In this document: positions 13,687-57,999 of the stretch, piece after piece
Numbering within the stretch: the first letter of the stretch is position 1
Layout: the number at the start of each line of letters is the position of its first letter
Source of the DNA: Schizochytrium sp. TIO01
Lineage: Eukaryota > Sar > Bigyra > Thraustochytrida > Thraustochytriidae
Assembly (NCBI GenBank): GCA_004764695.1
Contig: SMSO01000025.1
Span: forward strand, 3,369,102 to 3,433,101
Length of the DNA stretch: 64,000 nucleotides
Direction of reading: 5' to 3'
Made by a program: the position numbers and the translations under genes
The notes under the pieces: generated by a model
The model's input: only the letters and a program-made list of their open reading frames with translations
What the model was told of the DNA's origin: nothing
The model's database searches: none

Positions 13687-16600
13687 ATGTGCGAAGTCGT
13701 GGTATACCACGGTACCATTTCTGCAATAGGTGAGCAATTTGAAAACTCAGTTCAGAGATGGACAGACGACCAAGTACCTGAGGCAGCACTACGAAATCGT
13801 GAGTGGCGTGACGGCAAGTCAACGCATCATGTTACCCTAGTTTCACCTCCAGAAATGCGACGACTTTCAAGAAAGGGCGCAGACCTGGTGAAAGCTTTTC
13901 AAGAAGCTGCAAATGAAGGACCAGCTCCTTTAGGCCTTGGCCTCGGTCGCGTCAAGAATGTATGGTTTATTGTTTTGAGTTGGCCATGCATACAAGTGGT
14001 TCGTCGCAAGCTCGGTCTTCCAGCAAAGGATCTTCACATTACGGTTGGATTCCTCGAAAGCGACATTCATGATGTATCAAAAAACTATACAACGCTTTGT
14101 CGGAGCAGTTTACTTCGGTTTACGACATGTGACGTCCAGCAACTCTTAGCGGACCCCCAGGGCCTGAACGAGGACTTATGCAACTTTTTAATGGAGGTTA
14201 CAGAGCTTCATGCCGATACTATGCCAAGCGAGCATGTGGAAGCACTCCTTCTGCGTGCGCGTGTGCTTGGCCAAAACAAAAAGCCAAAACAAGCTGAAGC
14301 TGATGCCCGACTTGCCTTTTCTCTTGCTTCAAAACTACAACAAGACCGTGTTGCACTGACTTTAGGGGATGCACTTACTGCTCTTGGACAGAGAGACGAG
14401 GCATGGAATATATACAAAGAAGCCTTGACACATTGTGGACCTGCTCGGCGTAAACTCTTTAACAATCTTGTGAAGCGCATGTCATATCTTGCGCTCCGCA
14501 ATCGCAGTCTTCTTACTTCTCCTCCAAAGTTTCCCCGGACTCAGCACCTGGTGAATTTAGGTGCTGCCACACGTGATGACTTGCTGTTCCCTCAGGATAA
14601 ACGCAAAATCTTCATTAACCCTGATGTCTTACATCGAGTTGTAATTGAGGAGAAAGTTGATGGTGCTAACTTGGGAATTTACATCGACGAGAATTGGAAT
14701 ATTGTTTTTCAAAACCGCTCTCGCACTGTATGTTGCGAGTCGGCTCCTCAGTGGGCAAGCTTAGATCGCTGGCTCGACTCACGAAAGATTAATCTTTGTA
14801 AAACATTGGGTCAACGGTATGCTGTTTTTGGCGAATGGATGTATGCAAAGCATTCCATCCATTATACCAGCTTGCCTGATACTTTCCTAGGGTTTGATGT
14901 TTATGATCGAATTGCTGAGAAGTTCTTATCTGTGCCGATTAGAAACGCTATTCTTGAAAAGGCAGATCTGACTCCGGTACGCAGTGTCGAATTCGACAGT
15001 ACGGTGATGTTCCAGAGTGAAGAGTCCTTCGAAGAAGATCTCTGTTTATTGCTTTCAGAGACGCAGTCAGCATACTACAATGGACCAGTGGAAGGCCTCG
15101 TGTTACGTTATGACGAAGTTAATACTACTGATCCGGAATCTCTTCTGCAATTTCTTCTTCAGCGAGGCAAAATCGTACGGGCTGATTTTTCTCAAGGCAT
15201 TGAGGATCACTGGACGCATACGTCCCTAGTTCGAAACAAAATTATACCAGTGGCTATGCCGCTCCATGACAGTAGTTTTGCGGTTAGCGTCAAGAAATAT
15301 CCGAGTACACCTCATCTGCCTTGGAGCCCGAACGTAAATGCTGATGACACACTGTTACGCTCAAGTGAAGATTTTTTTGGTAAACGCGTTATCATCACAG
15401 AAAAGCTTGATGGTGGAAATTGTTGTCTTGCGCCGGGAGGAAAAGTATTCGCTCGAACGCACAATAAGGAGGCCTCCTATTGGTCGTTTGGCCCTGTTAA
15501 AGAACTTTACCGATGTCTTCGAGCTGAGTACCCTGAAATATTTGAAGAAGGGCGGTACAAGAACGCTGAATTTTATGGAGAAAATATGACAGCTACACAT
15601 AGCATAGCTTATGATCGTCTGCAATCCTGTTTCTATCTCTTTGCTGTGAGAAATGACTCCGAATGGTTGCCCTGGGATGAGGTTGTCTCACTTGCGCGAA
15701 AGCTTCAACTTCGGACTGTACCCTTGGTGTTTGACGGGGTGCTTAAGAACGACGATCAGCTGCGAGCTTTGCTTGAAACAGAGGCAACATTGCCAAGTCG
15801 TGTTGCTGAAGACATTATTGGTGAAGGATTTGTTATTCGCATTGCCGCAAGCTTTTCCGATAATCCGAACATCTTTGAACAAAACATTGCAAAGTATGTA
15901 CGAGCTAACCATATCCAAACATCAGCAAGTTGGCGACGTACCTGTGCCAAGGCTCACATAAAATATCTCCTACCAGGTGACGCCGGCGAATTTCCAATGA
16001 GACCTCCAATCTCTGCTCAATCAATCCAATTGTTTGTGGATCTCGATGGAGTCCTTGCAGACTTTGATGCTGGCGTGCGTCGTATTTGTGGTCAGTCCCC
16101 AAACGATATCGCTGTAGCAGCAATGTGGCGCGCGATCCATAGTGCTCGAGACTTTTTTGGGAGTCTCGAGTGGATGCCAGGTGCGCAAGCACTTTGGGAA
16201 AACTCCCTTGCCCATTTAAAGCCGACCATCCTTTCTGGAGTACCAATGTCAGATTCGCGGTGGGCTGAACGCCAAAAGTCAGCTTGGTGTGCTAGAAAGC
16301 TTGGACCCGAGGTCCCGCACATCTTTTGTGCGAGTCGCGAAAAGAGCACATATAGTGGTCCATACCGAGTCTTGATTGATGATCGTGATCGAGCTCGTAG
16401 GCCTTGGGAAGCCGCTGGTGGTATCTTTATTCTATACACAACTCCGGAGCAAGTAGCTTCGGAATTAGAAGAGGTGAAGCGTCAGCTTCAAACCGAATTT
16501 AAAGATACGGAAAACTCAGGGGAGAAATTCGCTATTCAAGAACAACCAGTTTTAGAGAGTAATAGCGATGATAATCAAACTCCCGGGCCTGAATTTGAGC

Positions 16601-17094
16601 GCCAGCGATGCAAATATAAATTGATAATATTGGTTGGACTTCCAGGTAGCGGAAAATCCACCTTTGGGAAGCTGCTTACTGAACGTCTACAATGTGAGCG
16701 AATATGTCAAGATGAGGTGGGCTCAAGACGCACATGTGAAAATATAATTGGGCGCGATGTAAAACGAACAACGGTGGTGCTCGATCGTTGCAATGTGGAG
16801 AGAGCTGATCGTAAATACTGGATGCAGCTTGCGATGGTTTCTTCAAAGCAGGTTGCTGTGGTCCTCTTCGAACCACCTCCAGACTCGGGCTTGACTCTTG
16901 CAAATAGACTAATTCAGCGTCGAGCACATCCGACAATCAAAACATCGAATTTGGAGAGTGCTAGGAAAATTGTTACTAGCTTTTCTCGCAAGCTGGAAGT
17001 ACCAACGGTAAAGGACGATAAGGTTGATCGTGTTTTCCATATGACTTCTTTCGATGACACAGATCATATCATAGCCCAGCTTGCCAAACATTAA
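13687..17094 (+). CDS. Multidomain RNA end-healing and ligation protein
   Basis: A 1135-residue single-exon protein from the first in-frame ATG; the frame is open slightly further but only from TTG. Domains in order: (1) a 2H phosphoesterase, residues 1-140, with two H-x-T motifs at H48/T50 and H117/T119, of the type that opens 2',3'-cyclic phosphates; (2) TPR-like helices, about 170-275; (3) RNA-ligase nucleotidyltransferase 1, with motif I lysine K323 (EKVDG), motif IV at E469 (EGLVLR) and motif V at K495; (4) nucleotidyltransferase 2, with K573 (EKLDG), motif IV at E713 and motif V at K736; (5) a HAD phosphatase resembling 5'(3')-deoxyribonucleotidases, with D785/D787 in VDLDGVLADFD and a later LIDDR; (6) a P-loop polynucleotide-kinase-like domain with the Walker A lysine K990 (GLPGSGKST) and VVLDRCNVERADR. 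Every module keeps its key residues. It could therefore open cyclic ends, remove a phosphate, phosphorylate 5'-OH and ligate, as in tRNA splicing or repair of cleaved RNA. The combined activity is inferred. Confidence 0.88.
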   Translation: MCEVVVYHGTISAIGEQFENSVQRWTDDQVPEAALRNREWRDGKSTHHVTLVSPPEMRRLSRKGADLVKAFQEAANEGPAPLGLGLGRVKNVWFIVLSWPCIQVVRRKLGLPAKDLHITVGFLESDIHDVSKNYTTLCRSSLLRFTTCDVQQLLADPQGLNEDLCNFLMEVTELHADTMPSEHVEALLLRARVLGQNKKPKQAEADARLAFSLASKLQQDRVALTLGDALTALGQRDEAWNIYKEALTHCGPARRKLFNNLVKRMSYLALRNRSLLTSPPKFPRTQHLVNLGAATRDDLLFPQDKRKIFINPDVLHRVVIEEKVDGANLGIYIDENWNIVFQNRSRTVCCESAPQWASLDRWLDSRKINLCKTLGQRYAVFGEWMYAKHSIHYTSLPDTFLGFDVYDRIAEKFLSVPIRNAILEKADLTPVRSVEFDSTVMFQSEESFEEDLCLLLSETQSAYYNGPVEGLVLRYDEVNTTDPESLLQFLLQRGKIVRADFSQGIEDHWTHTSLVRNKIIPVAMPLHDSSFAVSVKKYPSTPHLPWSPNVNADDTLLRSSEDFFGKRVIITEKLDGGNCCLAPGGKVFARTHNKEASYWSFGPVKELYRCLRAEYPEIFEEGRYKNAEFYGENMTATHSIAYDRLQSCFYLFAVRNDSEWLPWDEVVSLARKLQLRTVPLVFDGVLKNDDQLRALLETEATLPSRVAEDIIGEGFVIRIAASFSDNPNIFEQNIAKYVRANHIQTSASWRRTCAKAHIKYLLPGDAGEFPMRPPISAQSIQLFVDLDGVLADFDAGVRRICGQSPNDIAVAAMWRAIHSARDFFGSLEWMPGAQALWENSLAHLKPTILSGVPMSDSRWAERQKSAWCARKLGPEVPHIFCASREKSTYSGPYRVLIDDRDRARRPWEAAGGIFILYTTPEQVASELEEVKRQLQTEFKDTENSGEKFAIQEQPVLESNSDDNQTPGPEFERQRCKYKLIILVGLPGSGKSTFGKLLTERLQCERICQDEVGSRRTCENIIGRDVKRTTVVLDRCNVERADRKYWMQLAMVSSKQVAVVLFEPPPDSGLTLANRLIQRRAHPTIKTSNLESARKIVTSFSRKLEVPTVKDDKVDRVFHMTSFDDTDHIIAQLAKH

Positions 17095-17725
17095 TTTTGC
17101 AATAGCTAATTATACTAACTTACATGTCATCTTCTTCAATTTTATTCATTTAATTTTTCTTGACTTACAGCTTCAACCGTCAGCCTGTTCTATTATGGAG
17201 ATGGAATCAAATATCGAACCCAACACTACGGTAGATGATGACAAAATAAAGCTAGACTAAGGAAAATCATAAATTCATCCAGGTAATACGCTTATTCTCT
17301 CATGGCCTGTGTCACATTCACATTGGTGTACTTGCTATTACAGGCAGATTGAGGCGAGCAGATAAAGCAAGTTGGGACATCATTATTTGTATGGAGCTTT
17401 TTTAACATTTTAATTTAAAAAGTTAAAGTAAAATAATTGAAGCGCAGACAAACGAAGCAAATGTCTGTTATTATTGGTCCATTTTAATTATGCGCATTTA
17501 AAAATGAGAGGTCAGGTGTTCGAAGTAATATCATATTTACAAGAATAGATGATATACGATGCAATTTAGTATGTATGCAGATTAATAGGGTACCATCTTA
17601 CCATCTTACAATAATAAATAAAATAAAGCGGCAAAATAAACCAAGGTAAAGCAAACCAAAACCTGAAAAGCGTCATTTCGGAGGCTCTGGCCTCAAAGGG
17701 CTTGCAAAAGTATCTGTGCGCAAAT
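17095..17725. other. AT-rich intergenic region
   Basis: 631 bases between two plus-strand genes. AT-rich and without a supportable ORF. It must carry the 3' end of the RNA-repair gene and the promoter of the COQ10-EF-hand gene. Confidence 0.6.
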
Positions 17726-18925
17726 ATGCTTACGTTGCAGAGGCTACAGAGGCAGCCAGTGCCACGGCGAGCTGCTCCGTTTCGCGAGAGCGTGGCAGGT
17801 CTCTCTTGGCTCTTTGGTGGATCGTCATCCTCCACGAGTATTAAGCGTCACCGCGAGCATCGCGTTGTGCCTTTTCCAAAGAACGTTATGTATAACGTTG
17901 TAGCAGACGTGCCTCGTTATAAGGAGTTTGTGCCATACACAGTAGATTCTCGTATTTTAGAGCAGATCTCAAGGTATGAGAATGTCGCAGAGCTCAAGGT
18001 TGGGTTTGGAGCACTAAGTGAACGCTACAAAAGCCGTGTGAAGCTGGACCCAGCAGAAGGCAAGGTTGAGGCACGTGCTGAAGATTCTGCGGTGTTCAAG
18101 GTCCTTACAAACAAGTGGTGTATCAAAGACCGCCCAATGGACCCCGAAACCTCGACTCTGGAGTTCGAACTGGAATTTCAGTTCAAGCACAGCCTCTACA
18201 ATAGTGTAGCGGACATGTTCTTTAAAAAGGTCACAGAAGCCATGGTGGATGCATTTTTGACACGTTGTGAGGCCGTACAGGAGGGTCATGCCCAGGCGCA
18301 CAATTACTTTGCACGCATTGCTCCACCCAGAAGGGGCCTTTTCCGCAGCAAGGGGTTGGCCGCTCAAGGGCAGCTGCTCGGCGAGCTTGAGACGCTTTCA
18401 CATTTTGATCTTCATGAGCTCGAGCGTATCAAGAATAACTTTGACTCGGCGACAAGTTACTCCAAAACTGGTACACTCGACCTGCCTACGTTCAAGAAGC
18501 TGTTTCGCGAGTTGTTTCATGATGAGCCCACAGATAAGGTGAACCGCTCTGCAGATCTTTTGTTCAGCGCTCTTGACATCAACCGCGACGGATCTTTGAA
18601 CTTTCGTGAGTTTGTAGCAGGTCTGTCGACAGTTGTTAAGGGTAACCCTGAAGAACGTGCGCGTTTCTGGCTTCGCTGTTTTGATGATAATGGAGATGGT
18701 CATGTGGACCGTCGTCAGCTATATAACATGGTTTATGTGTCCATGGAAGTTCGCAATGGGCTTCTTCAAGTCGGGGCTTCTAGCAAACCGCAAGAAGCAG
18801 GTTATTTTGAAATCGACCACAACCTCGATCGTCTTGCACGCGAGGCTGTAGATCAGTGTTTTGCTGATGTTCCTGACGATCAGGGTGTGAATATTGAGGC
18901 GGTTCTGTCAAAGAACCTTTTTTAA
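17726..18925 (+). CDS. COQ10-like START domain fused to EF-hands
   Basis: A 399-residue single-exon protein starting at the first ATG in frame. Residues 1-40 are rich in Arg, Leu and Ser and nearly lack acids, a typical mitochondrial presequence. Residues about 45-190 match the coenzyme-Q-binding COQ10 / polyketide-cyclase START-like fold: PFPKNVMYNVVADVPRYKEF at the start, then ELKVGFGALSERYKS and a C-terminal amphipathic helix. COQ10 helps ubiquinone function in the inner-membrane respiratory chain. The extra C-terminal half carries EF-hands of the calcineurin-B/recoverin kind: a degenerate one near residues 245-275, a canonical loop at 284-295 (DINRDGSLNFRE), and a second at 320-331 (DDNGDGHVDRRQ) with Gln in place of the usual final Glu. 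Standard COQ10 proteins have no EF-hands. The frame is continuous through the junction. Calcium regulation of CoQ handling is an inference. Confidence 0.88.
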   Translation: MLTLQRLQRQPVPRRAAPFRESVAGLSWLFGGSSSSTSIKRHREHRVVPFPKNVMYNVVADVPRYKEFVPYTVDSRILEQISRYENVAELKVGFGALSERYKSRVKLDPAEGKVEARAEDSAVFKVLTNKWCIKDRPMDPETSTLEFELEFQFKHSLYNSVADMFFKKVTEAMVDAFLTRCEAVQEGHAQAHNYFARIAPPRRGLFRSKGLAAQGQLLGELETLSHFDLHELERIKNNFDSATSYSKTGTLDLPTFKKLFRELFHDEPTDKVNRSADLLFSALDINRDGSLNFREFVAGLSTVVKGNPEERARFWLRCFDDNGDGHVDRRQLYNMVYVSMEVRNGLLQVGASSKPQEAGYFEIDHNLDRLAREAVDQCFADVPDDQGVNIEAVLSKNLF

Positions 18926-54762: not shown

Positions 54763-57700
54763 CTATTCCAGAACGTTAAGTGCGTGGTACTTGCAAAGAA
54801 GGTCTACAGCTCCAATGAGTTGTTCATAGGTGCAGTCTATGGAATTGTCATCTATAAATTGTTCTGCACTTCGCTTTATTTTCCTTTTATCCTGGAGATA
54901 ATGAATCACGCCGTCAGGCGACGAAAGATCCATATTTCTGGCTGGAGTTTTGACAATATAGTCAAGAAATTCCGCTAAATCCTCACGCCTATCAAAGAGT
55001 GTCTCCAAAGAATCCTCTTTAGGAAATGTGCTGTGGTTAGATTGAGAAGATGCTCCCCTTGCATTATGTACCTTGTCAGCTGTGACGAAAGCGTCACAGG
55101 CTACCGTAGAAACGGAGTCAGGAAGGTTTTCAAAACAACCAAGGTAGTGATGCACATTGTGCATATAAACCCAACAGTCTTTGGCCACACGGCGCACTGG
55201 TTTGTGATTTAGTGTGTTGCTCCCATCTGAGTTTTCATAGAAGATATCTTTAGTATAGTTGTGCACATCTCGCGACTGGCAGAGCTTTTGCTTTTTGGAT
55301 GGACTGATGTGTTTAGCACGCTTGGTTACATGAAGTTTAATGTCTTCAACCTTGTCATAACCGCTGGCATTTTCTGCCTTTAATTGATTAGCAATGACTT
55401 CAAAAGTATGAAGGCCCGGAGCAAATCTTTCCAGGCATGTTGTATTCGGGTACGTGGTTTCCCCAAATGATGCGAGTGCAAATGCGCCAGGAAGACCATG
55501 ATTAATACGGCCTAATTGCTGGTGAAGCCCGTCGATCGTGGTATTTTGGTGGCCATGGTAGAGGTCTGTTAATTGAATGAAGCGGGACTTAGACTCAACA
55601 TTTACAGAATATTTAAACAAAGCCTCACCCGATATTGAAATTTGTAGCGGGTTTTTAATGAGAAAGTCAGCCATAGCTGTACGTTTCACAGCAATATGTT
55701 TTTGCGGAGGGATCGAATCCGGGCAAAGCCCAATCTCGGTATCGTACCTCAATTTTGAACGTTGTGAAACCATATAGAGGAGCTCCACGAAAGACAGGCG
55801 CGACTTTGCATCTGCAAAAAGCCCTGTGGGGGTACGATCAGCGTTCTTCCGTTTCCTCGTCCGTCCGTTTTCCTCTTTGGGTCGTCGAACGAGATACCCA
55901 ATAAAGAAAGTTTTTATTGTTTCAAAGTCTTCTTGGGAATTAATTTCACGATATGGATTGTCACCGGTCTCATGTTCTGAAATACCCCAAATGCAAGCGT
56001 ATCCTTCCTTGTATCCACCACCTGCAAAAGCTTTCTCCTTCAAGGTACTGAGAGCATCTTTGTGGATAACGTTCTTATGGTTTGCGTCCTCGCTGTTGTC
56101 GGAGTAGAAATGTTTAACGGAGTCTCGAAAGTGTTCGCGACAGCGAGGTTTCATCACCACTGCACCATTTTGGAAATGAAAAAGCTTTCGTGCAGCTTGC
56201 ATTCCAAGGAATATACCAGGACGATATTCAAAGTCACGTGATCCAGTAGTCCTGAACGATCCGTAATTGGCAACACCGGCCACAAATGCCTTAGGGATTT
56301 CCGCCACCTTATCACATTTTCCTTTCAGATATGTTCTCATCATATTATTAAAGACTTCCTGGAAGTAAACCCGCGTGGCAAGTAGGCGACAGTGCGTCAA
56401 GTTCACACTGCGGCCTCCACTCTTTGATTGTCCTATAGCGCGATTAATAAAGAGTGCACAGCTCGTCCTGATTGCTGGTGCGCATGTTGCGCAAATTATT
56501 TCTGGGGGCAAGGCCTGATAATCCGGTTCGAAACTTTTTTTTGTCGTCCGAATTAACCCTCGGACACCCAAAAACTGTGGATAGTGAAGTTTCTCTCCAT
56601 GAAGTTCTTGGGACCTATTTATCATGAAGTCTTCAGCAGCCTTAGCCCAAACTTTTTTCCACTCTGAATCGAGTTTCTCGATGTGACTTTCTGCCATATC
56701 TAAAAAGTTGAGGTTAACTGGGTAAATATGTAACTTTGCAAATTCTCTCAGTTCATCTTCAGGTCGACCGTAAAGCTCAATATAGTAACCCGGACGTGGC
56801 TTTAGAAATGCTTGATGCCCTCTTTGGTTGGTATTAGCATCTTTAAGGACTGCCAAAATGCGCTGAGGTTCAGGTGTAGCGGTGATAAGAGTGTAGCTTT
56901 TCATGCGATCGTTCCTACCGATGAGGTCTTGGAAACTCTGAGCACGCTTGTTGGTGGCCACCATGCATTGAGATTCATCAAGCAAGATGTGGTACCTTTG
57001 GCTAGCCTTCATTCCCCTCTCCATTGACTCAATATTGGGGGAGCTAAAAATGCGAACATTGAAGGGAGTAACATGAATGTTCTTTTCGGAAACATCAGTG
57101 CAGTTCCTGTCATTCTTCTTTCTCCAGTGATCATCTTGGTTCAGCCTTATAAACCGAATGAAAAAAAAAATAGTAGCCTCTCTATTCGAAGAGATTTTAG
57201 CCTTTTGGTCTAGGTAGAGGGCAGGGTATTTATCCTCAAAAAGCTTTTCAAACGACTTGAACCTTACGTTGCAATCTTGAAGGAAAGACTGCATGTGATT
57301 GTAGCCTGTAGACGATTCAATAGTAAAGTATACGGGGTAGCTACCACGGCAAACATGCTCAATAAGACCCTTCACACTTGAAGCAGCTGTTTTCCCGGAC
57401 TGACAAAACCCAATAATATCCAATTTATGTCCGCCAGAAAAGTAATCCTTGCAATCTTGCTCTGTCATGAAAGCAATTGCGTACATTCGCATAATATGAA
57501 CGATTAAAACAAATTTAATTGCAAGTGCAATTCGAATTGACGCAGGGCTGTTCCTGACATAGTCAGTCAAAAGATATTTGGCGATCGTCCCCGGGTCAAA
57601 GAAGTCACAATTGGACGTGTAGACAGGCTTGTAACTTGTAAGCTCTTCGCCCTTCTCATCTTGCGTGAGAATTTGCTGGAGGAACCTGAGGAGAGGTGAG

Positions 57701-57999
57701 TTGGTAGAGAGCTGCGTACGAACTTCGCCCTCCGTTAAGCTCAACTTCTTGAGAAGTGCCGCAGCTTTCGAGACGCTGTCCATTGGAATTGGTGCGCCTC
57801 TCTCATCATCATCGGAATCACTATCGTAGACAAAGAATCTAGACTCGCGATCGTCCGAACTGTTGAAAACGCGTCGAGGTACATCTGGTTCACTTGTCGA
57901 TGGTTCCTCAACCTGGCTGTCGCCACTTGAAGCATCATCATCGTCTAGTGTAAGATCGATAACGTCTTCGGGCCAGAGGCGATTAGCAGACTTAGTCAT
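54763..57999 (-). CDS. SF2-helicase-like protein with SUMO-interacting motif
   Basis: A 1078-residue single-exon protein from the ATG at 57999. The N terminus holds VIDLT (residues 13-17) followed by DDDD and a Ser/Asp stretch, the textbook SUMO-interacting motif with its acidic flank. The core reads as a superfamily 2 ATPase: Walker A GFCQSGKT with K203, Walker B LLDESQ with D341/E342, motif III TATPEP (373-378), and a motif VI-like QQLGR (827-831) that lacks the usual second arginine. The QSGKT form of motif I recalls Z1-type and viral/mobile-element helicases more than DEAD-box proteins, but I cannot name a family. A charged NLS-like stretch (RRPKEENGRTRKRKN) lies near residue 715. A poorly conserved Cys-containing tail follows. 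No stops or frameshifts, so it is probably expressed. It sits beside a transposon fossil and a tandem repeat, so a viral or mobile origin is possible (inference). Confidence 0.7.
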   Translation of the reverse strand: MTKSANRLWPEDVIDLTLDDDDASSGDSQVEEPSTSEPDVPRRVFNSSDDRESRFFVYDSDSDDDERGAPIPMDSVSKAAALLKKLSLTEGEVRTQLSTNSPLLRFLQQILTQDEKGEELTSYKPVYTSNCDFFDPGTIAKYLLTDYVRNSPASIRIALAIKFVLIVHIMRMYAIAFMTEQDCKDYFSGGHKLDIIGFCQSGKTAASSVKGLIEHVCRGSYPVYFTIESSTGYNHMQSFLQDCNVRFKSFEKLFEDKYPALYLDQKAKISSNREATIFFFIRFIRLNQDDHWRKKNDRNCTDVSEKNIHVTPFNVRIFSSPNIESMERGMKASQRYHILLDESQCMVATNKRAQSFQDLIGRNDRMKSYTLITATPEPQRILAVLKDANTNQRGHQAFLKPRPGYYIELYGRPEDELREFAKLHIYPVNLNFLDMAESHIEKLDSEWKKVWAKAAEDFMINRSQELHGEKLHYPQFLGVRGLIRTTKKSFEPDYQALPPEIICATCAPAIRTSCALFINRAIGQSKSGGRSVNLTHCRLLATRVYFQEVFNNMMRTYLKGKCDKVAEIPKAFVAGVANYGSFRTTGSRDFEYRPGIFLGMQAARKLFHFQNGAVVMKPRCREHFRDSVKHFYSDNSEDANHKNVIHKDALSTLKEKAFAGGGYKEGYACIWGISEHETGDNPYREINSQEDFETIKTFFIGYLVRRPKEENGRTRKRKNADRTPTGLFADAKSRLSFVELLYMVSQRSKLRYDTEIGLCPDSIPPQKHIAVKRTAMADFLIKNPLQISISGEALFKYSVNVESKSRFIQLTDLYHGHQNTTIDGLHQQLGRINHGLPGAFALASFGETTYPNTTCLERFAPGLHTFEVIANQLKAENASGYDKVEDIKLHVTKRAKHISPSKKQKLCQSRDVHNYTKDIFYENSDGSNTLNHKPVRRVAKDCWVYMHNVHHYLGCFENLPDSVSTVACDAFVTADKVHNARGASSQSNHSTFPKEDSLETLFDRREDLAEFLDYIVKTPARNMDLSSPDGVIHYLQDKRKIKRSAEQFIDDNSIDCTYEQLIGAVDLLCKYHALNVLE

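Follow-up and report, generated by a model that had tools for sequence, protein, structure and literature searches.

A predicted single-chain RNA repair enzyme with two ligase domains in Schizochytrium sp. TIO01

Domain organization of the gene

The window analyzed here is a 64,000-nucleotide stretch of contig SMSO01000025.1 of Schizochytrium sp. TIO01, whose genome assembly comprises 64.06 Mb in 37 contigs. On the + strand of the window, a single open frame (13687–17094) runs from an ATG to a TAA through 1135 codons with no break in the genomic DNA. Profile searches place along it, from the N to the C terminus, a 2H-SAK phosphoesterase domain, a helical stretch, two ligase domains (LIG1 and LIG2), a HAD phosphatase, a linker, and a P-loop kinase (Table 1). 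A preliminary description of this DNA had read the gene as one uninterrupted repair frame of six parts. The frame is confirmed, with every domain in phase, and profile searches on its segments match both ligases and put the 2H domain and the kinase above their Pfam cut-offs. As to the six parts, the 2H, ligase, HAD, and kinase assignments stand, but the TPR label given to the helical stretch is not supported, TPR_14 scoring 19.4 bits against a gathering cut-off of 23.5.

Table 1. Position of the open frame and of its predicted parts within the window.
Feature	Position	Strand	Details
Complete open frame	13687..17094	+	1135 aa
2H-SAK phosphoesterase region	13687..14136	+	PF22547 at aa 26-128, 2.3e-19; HxT H48/T50, H117/T119
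Helical linker/scaffold, TPR-like	14137..14517	+	TPR_14 sub-threshold; helices in structure model
LIG1, predicted ATP-dependent RNA ligase core, nucleotidyl lysine K323	14524..15243	+	
LIG2, second predicted ATP-dependent RNA ligase core, nucleotidyl lysine K573	15292..15957	+	
HAD phosphatase, 5'(3')-deoxyribonucleotidase type	16021..16491	+	DxD D785/D787, K886, DD 898-899
HAD-kinase linker	16492..16614	+	Unstructured in model, pLDDT <50
Predicted P-loop polynucleotide 5'-kinase	16618..17043	+	GLPGSGKST at 984; AAA_33 1.4e-10

The two ligase domains both match PF09414. For LIG1, the profile match, the motif I lysine K323, and a ligase fold are all present, and the top fold matches of the LIG1 model are RNA ligases, ranked ahead of DNA ligases; in profile searches of solved structures, no close relative of LIG1 was found (best E 0.0026). 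LIG2 matches PF09414 at 83.5 bits, its lysine K573 is present in 90 of 90 relatives, and its best profile match among solved structures is 7uek (6.3e-6), over a short stretch only. Placement in the ligase fold is thereby supported for LIG1 by the profile and the modeled fold, and LIG2 is placed among the ligases by its profile match and lysine. The two K-x-DG sites with motifs IV and V that had been noticed earlier are also recovered: both domains retain the lysine, aspartate, and glycine of motif I, the glutamate of FGEW/YGEN, the EG of motif IV, and the lysine of motif V, which in LIG1 is K495 and is kept in 93 of 94 relatives. The residue commonest among the relatives is found at 13 of 15 motif sites in LIG1 (94 relatives) and at 14 of 15 in LIG2 (90 relatives), the exceptions being I496 and A499 in LIG1 and T591 in LIG2, none of which is a catalytic lysine, aspartate, or glutamate.

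The N-terminal 2H domain matches PF22547 (2H-SAK) at 70.3 bits against a cut-off of 27, and this profile matches one place in the whole genome. Its two H-x-T motifs, also part of the preliminary description, fall at residues 48–50 and 117–119 and are kept in 36–38 of 38 homologues, the catalytic residues H48 and H117 being present in 37 and in all 38 of these, respectively. The domain is predicted to open 2',3'-cyclic phosphates. Homologues of the 2H domain are carried by two huge phages, and profile searches of solved structures gave no close relative (best E 0.15).

In the C-terminal part of the protein, the proposed DxDGV site of the HAD domain is substantiated by conservation of the DxD, lysine, and DD residues and by a predicted fold that fits the 5'(3')-nucleotidase type. 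The Pfam match is to NT5C, at 17.9 bits and below the gathering score of 24.8. Profile matches are to NT5C and phage nucleotidases, not to HAD_SAK: the protein has 18 Pfam matches at E ≤1, neither PF10307 nor PF18143 (both HAD_SAK) being one of them, and the HAD_SAK profiles gave no match across the genome, although the controls were silent too. The domain is a predicted remover of 2'- or 3'-phosphates. The P-loop kinase motif likewise holds up, with AAA_33 at 42 bits (gathering cut-off 27) and matches to the solved kinases 9drz (6.7e-16) and 9d8a (3.9e-14); the kinase also resembles the PNKP profile at 30.8 bits, far under the curated cut-off of 502.8. The structure was predicted as two overlapping halves, and a full-length alignment for modeling was set aside, fragments of LIG1 and LIG2 apparently having been superimposed on each other in it.

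Ancestry and genomic neighborhoods of the two ligases

LIG1 and LIG2 are 28% identical over 137 residues. In a tree of 47 hand-chosen rows, from which the viral row L187 was removed for an internal stop and in which many within-clade branches are unresolved, LIG1 with 21 bacterial and viral relatives is split from LIG2 with 24 phage, viral, and Deinococcus relatives by a branch of 100/100. The LIG1 clade consists mostly of bacterial ligases, and stand-alone plasmid ligases of Tistrella, Azotobacter, and Aeromonas are 35–37% identical to LIG1; the LIG2 clade consists mostly of phage ligases, and six ligases of phages, Deinococcus, and Variovorax are 33–38% identical to LIG2. Because the clades are separate and the identity is this low, a recent origin of the pair by tandem internal duplication is ruled out.

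The relatives analyzed were the best 80 of 459 for LIG1, the best 80 of 323 for LIG2, and the best 80 of 121 for the HAD domain, and the loci compared include several identical or near-identical contigs. Among 80 bacterial loci with a LIG1-type ligase, a gene for an AAA (DUF3696) protein is found at 63, a small PIN-like gene at 67, and both at 58. Whenever found, these partners share the strand of the ligase (63 of 63 and 67 of 67), and in 60 of the 63 cases the AAA gene lies upstream of the ligase frame and ends no more than 1.2 kb from it. The pair occurs at 1 of 11 viral LIG1-type loci, and an AAA or PIN-like gene at 0 of 80 viral LIG2-type loci. In PADLOC, model HEC-03B matches both of the AAA proteins scanned and HEC-03A the single small protein scanned, with no match to the one LIG1-type ligase scanned.

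The small family retains D6, E52, D114, and D135 in 64–65 of 65 sequences, a pattern that we take to be PIN-like. Its sole match below 0.001 among solved structures is a designed TIM barrel (2.8e-7), taken as spurious, and a further search gave none. PIN nucleases produce 5'-phosphate and 3'-OH ends, so that a ligase could join their products without prior healing. In a metagenome-assembled genome labeled Klebsiella, a 1215-codon stop-to-stop frame (L077:3022-6666, + strand) joins an AAA/DUF3696 ATPase to a LIG1-type ligase.

Relatives of LIG2 are found in other settings. On one Deinococcus plasmid, the LIG2-type ligase adjoins a protein with HD and AAA_33 domains, presumably an HD-Pnk. A phage contig (L181, 1-6200; L235 is the same contig) carries separate genes for an Rnl1 ligase, a HAD protein, a LIG2-type ligase, and a kinase within ~4.5 kb, and a frame upstream on this contig is, as read by eye, presumably NADAR-like. 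Two huge phages have both a LIG2-type ligase and 2H-SAK, located far apart, and of 36 viral contigs that encode 2H-SAK, 4 recur among the 80 LIG2 contigs. At L015, L020, and some viral LIG2-type loci (L133, L145, L180), the ligase has an N-terminal extension of ~130–160 aa, which at L015 and L020 is, as read by eye, HNH nuclease-like. Fusions of HNH and Rnl2 domains are reported in a passage of PMC7824862.

Other repair genes in the genome and the search for fused relatives

The genome was searched with profiles in six frames, intron-blind, with PF09414 and PF09511 as the ligase families. Both genome matches to PF09414 lie inside the window gene, and PF09511 reveals one further ligase in a second fused protein, here called protein B (L011:2465-5368, − strand; C4). 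Protein B has 967 aa and is composed of an N-terminal stretch, a HAD domain, a T4 Rnl1-type ligase, and a P-loop kinase, its HAD domain being 38% identical to that of the window protein. RtcB (PF01139) has no match in the window protein at E ≤1 or in the genome, whereas 9 of 14 control genomes match. Matches to the tRNA splicing endonuclease are present, as is a 417-codon frame (L012:1524-2777, + strand; C4) with two tandem Tpt1/KptA 2'-phosphotransferase domains; a search of the genome for a Trl1-type kinase gave nothing, its controls being equally silent. With RtcB not detected and the endonuclease and Tpt1 present, it is very likely that tRNA is sealed in this organism by an ATP-dependent ligase. 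A further fusion of 970 aa (L003:451-3363, + strand; C13) carries an aprataxin-like HIT domain and a zinc finger beside a phosphatase and a kinase of PNKP type, and probably acts on DNA ends.

Fused relatives were sought in collections of prokaryotes, phages, plasmids, and viral contigs. By module profiles, with all profile stretches counted, the same fusion was found at 0 of 299 prokaryotic, plasmid, phage, or viral loci, in a test that recovered the window protein and in which the kinase profile is weak. Frames L193 and L109 contain one ligase domain matched in two pieces, not tandem ligases. Viral scans yielded zero relatives with the kinase as query and one locus with the entire protein. 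Within one bacterial phylum, 2H-SAK occurs in 6 of 398 genomes, each time as a frame of 183–247 aa with none of the other module profiles within ~6 kb, and in 0 of 10 LIG1-bearing genomes, where the controls were silent too.

The literature, covered mostly through open-access papers, gave no description of the two-ligase layout, which does not prove the layout unpublished. The preliminary description had held the architecture to be undescribed; this overstated its novelty, since Pfam already holds 2H-SAK, HAD_SAK_1, and HAD_SAK_2, and a table entry in PMC7765460 describes one HAD_SAK kind as "HAD domain in Swiss Army Knife RNA repair proteins". The idea of RNA repair by one chain is thus already known, and the present make-up looks like an unusual variant of it.

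The genes that flank the window gene encode an epoxide hydrolase and a protein with lipid-transfer and EF-hand domains, and have no evident functional tie to it. In the latter (17702-18925, + strand), a Polyketide_cyc lipid-transfer domain, which by eye we take to be COQ10-like, is joined to the EF-hands. The GC content of the window gene (0.46; GC3 0.39) lies inside the range of seven other window frames (GC 0.44–0.51; GC3 0.37–0.53), so that its base composition bears no mark of recent foreign origin. An open frame of 1078 aa at 54763-57999 (− strand) has no Pfam match at E ≤0.001; its GKT and DESQ strings resemble those of a helicase.

Proposed function and relation to known repair systems

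Overall, the window protein is best explained as a self-contained enzyme that heals and seals RNA ends, a function that its sequence makes probable. In the proposed order of steps, a 2',3'-cyclic phosphate would first be opened by the 2H domain and the leftover 2'- or 3'-phosphate stripped by the HAD domain; the kinase would then phosphorylate the 5'-OH, and LIG1 or LIG2, adenylated at K323 or K573, would join the 3'-OH to the 5'-phosphate. The substrate would be an endonucleolytically cut RNA, most probably a tRNA with a cut in its anticodon loop. The domain matches, the conserved residues in LIG1, LIG2, the HAD domain, and the 2H domain, and the folds of LIG1 and the HAD domain are consistent with this repair function. 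For the single-chain 3'-OH/5'-phosphate enzyme of the preliminary description, the content is upheld by two complete-looking ligases, a phosphatase, and a kinase, while its catalysis and substrates are what we infer from them.

Most loosely of all, we infer a division of labor between the two ligases. LIG2, which is of phage ancestry and has some relatives beside end-healing genes, may seal the healed ends, and LIG1, whose bacterial relatives adjoin a PIN-like gene, may seal cuts that already bear 3'-OH and 5'-phosphate. Separate roles had been suggested before; they gain some support because the two clades are long separated and the bacterial relatives of LIG1 stand in a conserved gene trio, but the evidence from the neighbors of LIG2 is thin.

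Several observations weigh against this repair function or its details. The kinase and most of the 2H domain are modeled at pLDDT <50, and the solved relatives of the HAD domain are nucleotidases that use free nucleotides. 2H enzymes are described, in a passage of PMC9503650, as leaving a 2'-phosphate; together with the tandem Tpt1 in the genome, this means that an alternative route for the 2'-phosphate exists. The assignment of LIG1 to clean cuts is drawn from bacterial neighbors only, and Pfam PIN_3 matches the small neighboring family weakly, in 2 of 20 members (best E 0.0056). Healing genes are uncommon beside LIG2-type ligases: at the 80 viral loci, a kinase is found within 4 kb at 4, a HAD protein at 2, and an Rnl1 ligase at 10.

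Four other explanations were weighed. The protein could be the tRNA-splicing, and perhaps mRNA-splicing, ligase of the cell, replacing RtcB and Trl1 instead of repairing damage. We consider this unlikely: the missing RtcB match, the presence of the splicing endonuclease and Tpt1, and the confinement of PF09414 and PF09511 matches to this gene and protein B all point to it, but protein B is an equally good candidate or a better one, the null result for a Trl1-type kinase has silent controls, the ligase search was limited to those two families, and a pair of ligases exceeds what splicing needs. There is a smaller chance that only one ligase domain seals and the other survives as a relic with a regulatory or RNA-binding role, as the chemistry needs one ligase and three motif sites carry a residue other than the commonest; the catalytic motif residues, however, are kept in both domains as in nearly all relatives. 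Activity on DNA ends or free nucleotides, to which the deoxyribonucleotidases nearest the HAD domain and the PNKP similarity of the kinase would point, is improbable given that the LIG1 fold is closest to RNA ligases with DNA ligases behind, that the 2H domain points to RNA 2',3'-cyclic ends, and that the PNKP-aprataxin type protein is encoded separately. A merger of adjacent genes by assembly or annotation is highly improbable in view of the unbroken codons, the single frame of all domains, and the parallel fusion in protein B.

Viewed as an RNA repair enzyme, the protein combines ordinary chemistry with an unusual assembly. The Swiss Army Knife RNA repair proteins, a class reportedly due to Burroughs and Aravind in 2016, share with it, as compared through Pfam domains only, the PF22547 2H-SAK domain and the gathering of repair domains, and differ in the type of HAD domain, NT5C-like here, and in the ligases of two clades. 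The window protein would work like a member of this class but is not classed as a full one, because the HAD_SAK profiles are unmatched and its ligases belong to two clades. Bacterial HD-Pnk with an adjoining ligase resembles it in the pairing seen on the Deinococcus plasmid, although there an HD domain replaces the 2H and HAD domains and the proteins are unfused.

Trl1, the tRNA ligase of fungi and plants, has a ligase, a kinase, and a 2H-type cyclic phosphodiesterase in one chain, as here. The abstract of PMC6592678 terms Trl1 trifunctional. The window protein differs in domain order, in its two ligases, and in the extra HAD domain, and PF09511, PF08303, and PF08302 have zero matches in it at E ≤1. 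The preliminary description had set it apart from Trl1 in order and content, and this is supported. T4 Pnk with RNA ligase and the repair sets of jumbo phages have the same chemistry, with a HAD phosphatase, a kinase, and an ATP-dependent ligase; passages of PMC7824862 and, on T4, PMC11494293 describe these activities, divided among several proteins, as RNA repair. There they are spread over at least two proteins, the T4 Pnk chain being phosphatase plus kinase, whereas the window protein also fuses a 2H domain and two ligases. According to parts of PMC7824862, PMC9503650, and PMC7765460, jumbo phages encode 2H proteins, HAD proteins of "Swiss-army-knife" or PNK type, kinases, and Rnl1/Rnl2 ligases, and a single phage may encode several ligases, probably with different tasks. 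The candidate defense cassette HEC-03 of PADLOC is linked to LIG1 by HEC-03-like genes near its bacterial relatives (58 of 80 loci with both); the window protein is without the AAA (DUF3696) and PIN-like domains, and the defense role of the cassette is itself a candidate one.

Among the new points, the strongest are that the ligases have separate origins, that the LIG1 clade has a candidate-defense neighborhood, and that two fused repair proteins are present in a genome with no detectable RtcB. Speculatively, and with little confidence, one may picture a eukaryote without RtcB that has given tRNA splicing and repair to two single-chain machines built from bacterial and phage conflict genes, with LIG1, of defense-cassette ancestry, for clean breaks and LIG2, of phage ancestry, for ends healed by the same chain. 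The window protein connects a eukaryotic repair enzyme with the ligase clade of a bacterial candidate defense cassette, and as a single substrate-to-product enzyme it may be of use in the laboratory. With an entire 3'-OH/5'-phosphate sealing pathway predicted on one chain, served by two distinct ligases, in a genome without an RtcB match, it opens tRNA splicing and repair in such a lineage to a direct test.

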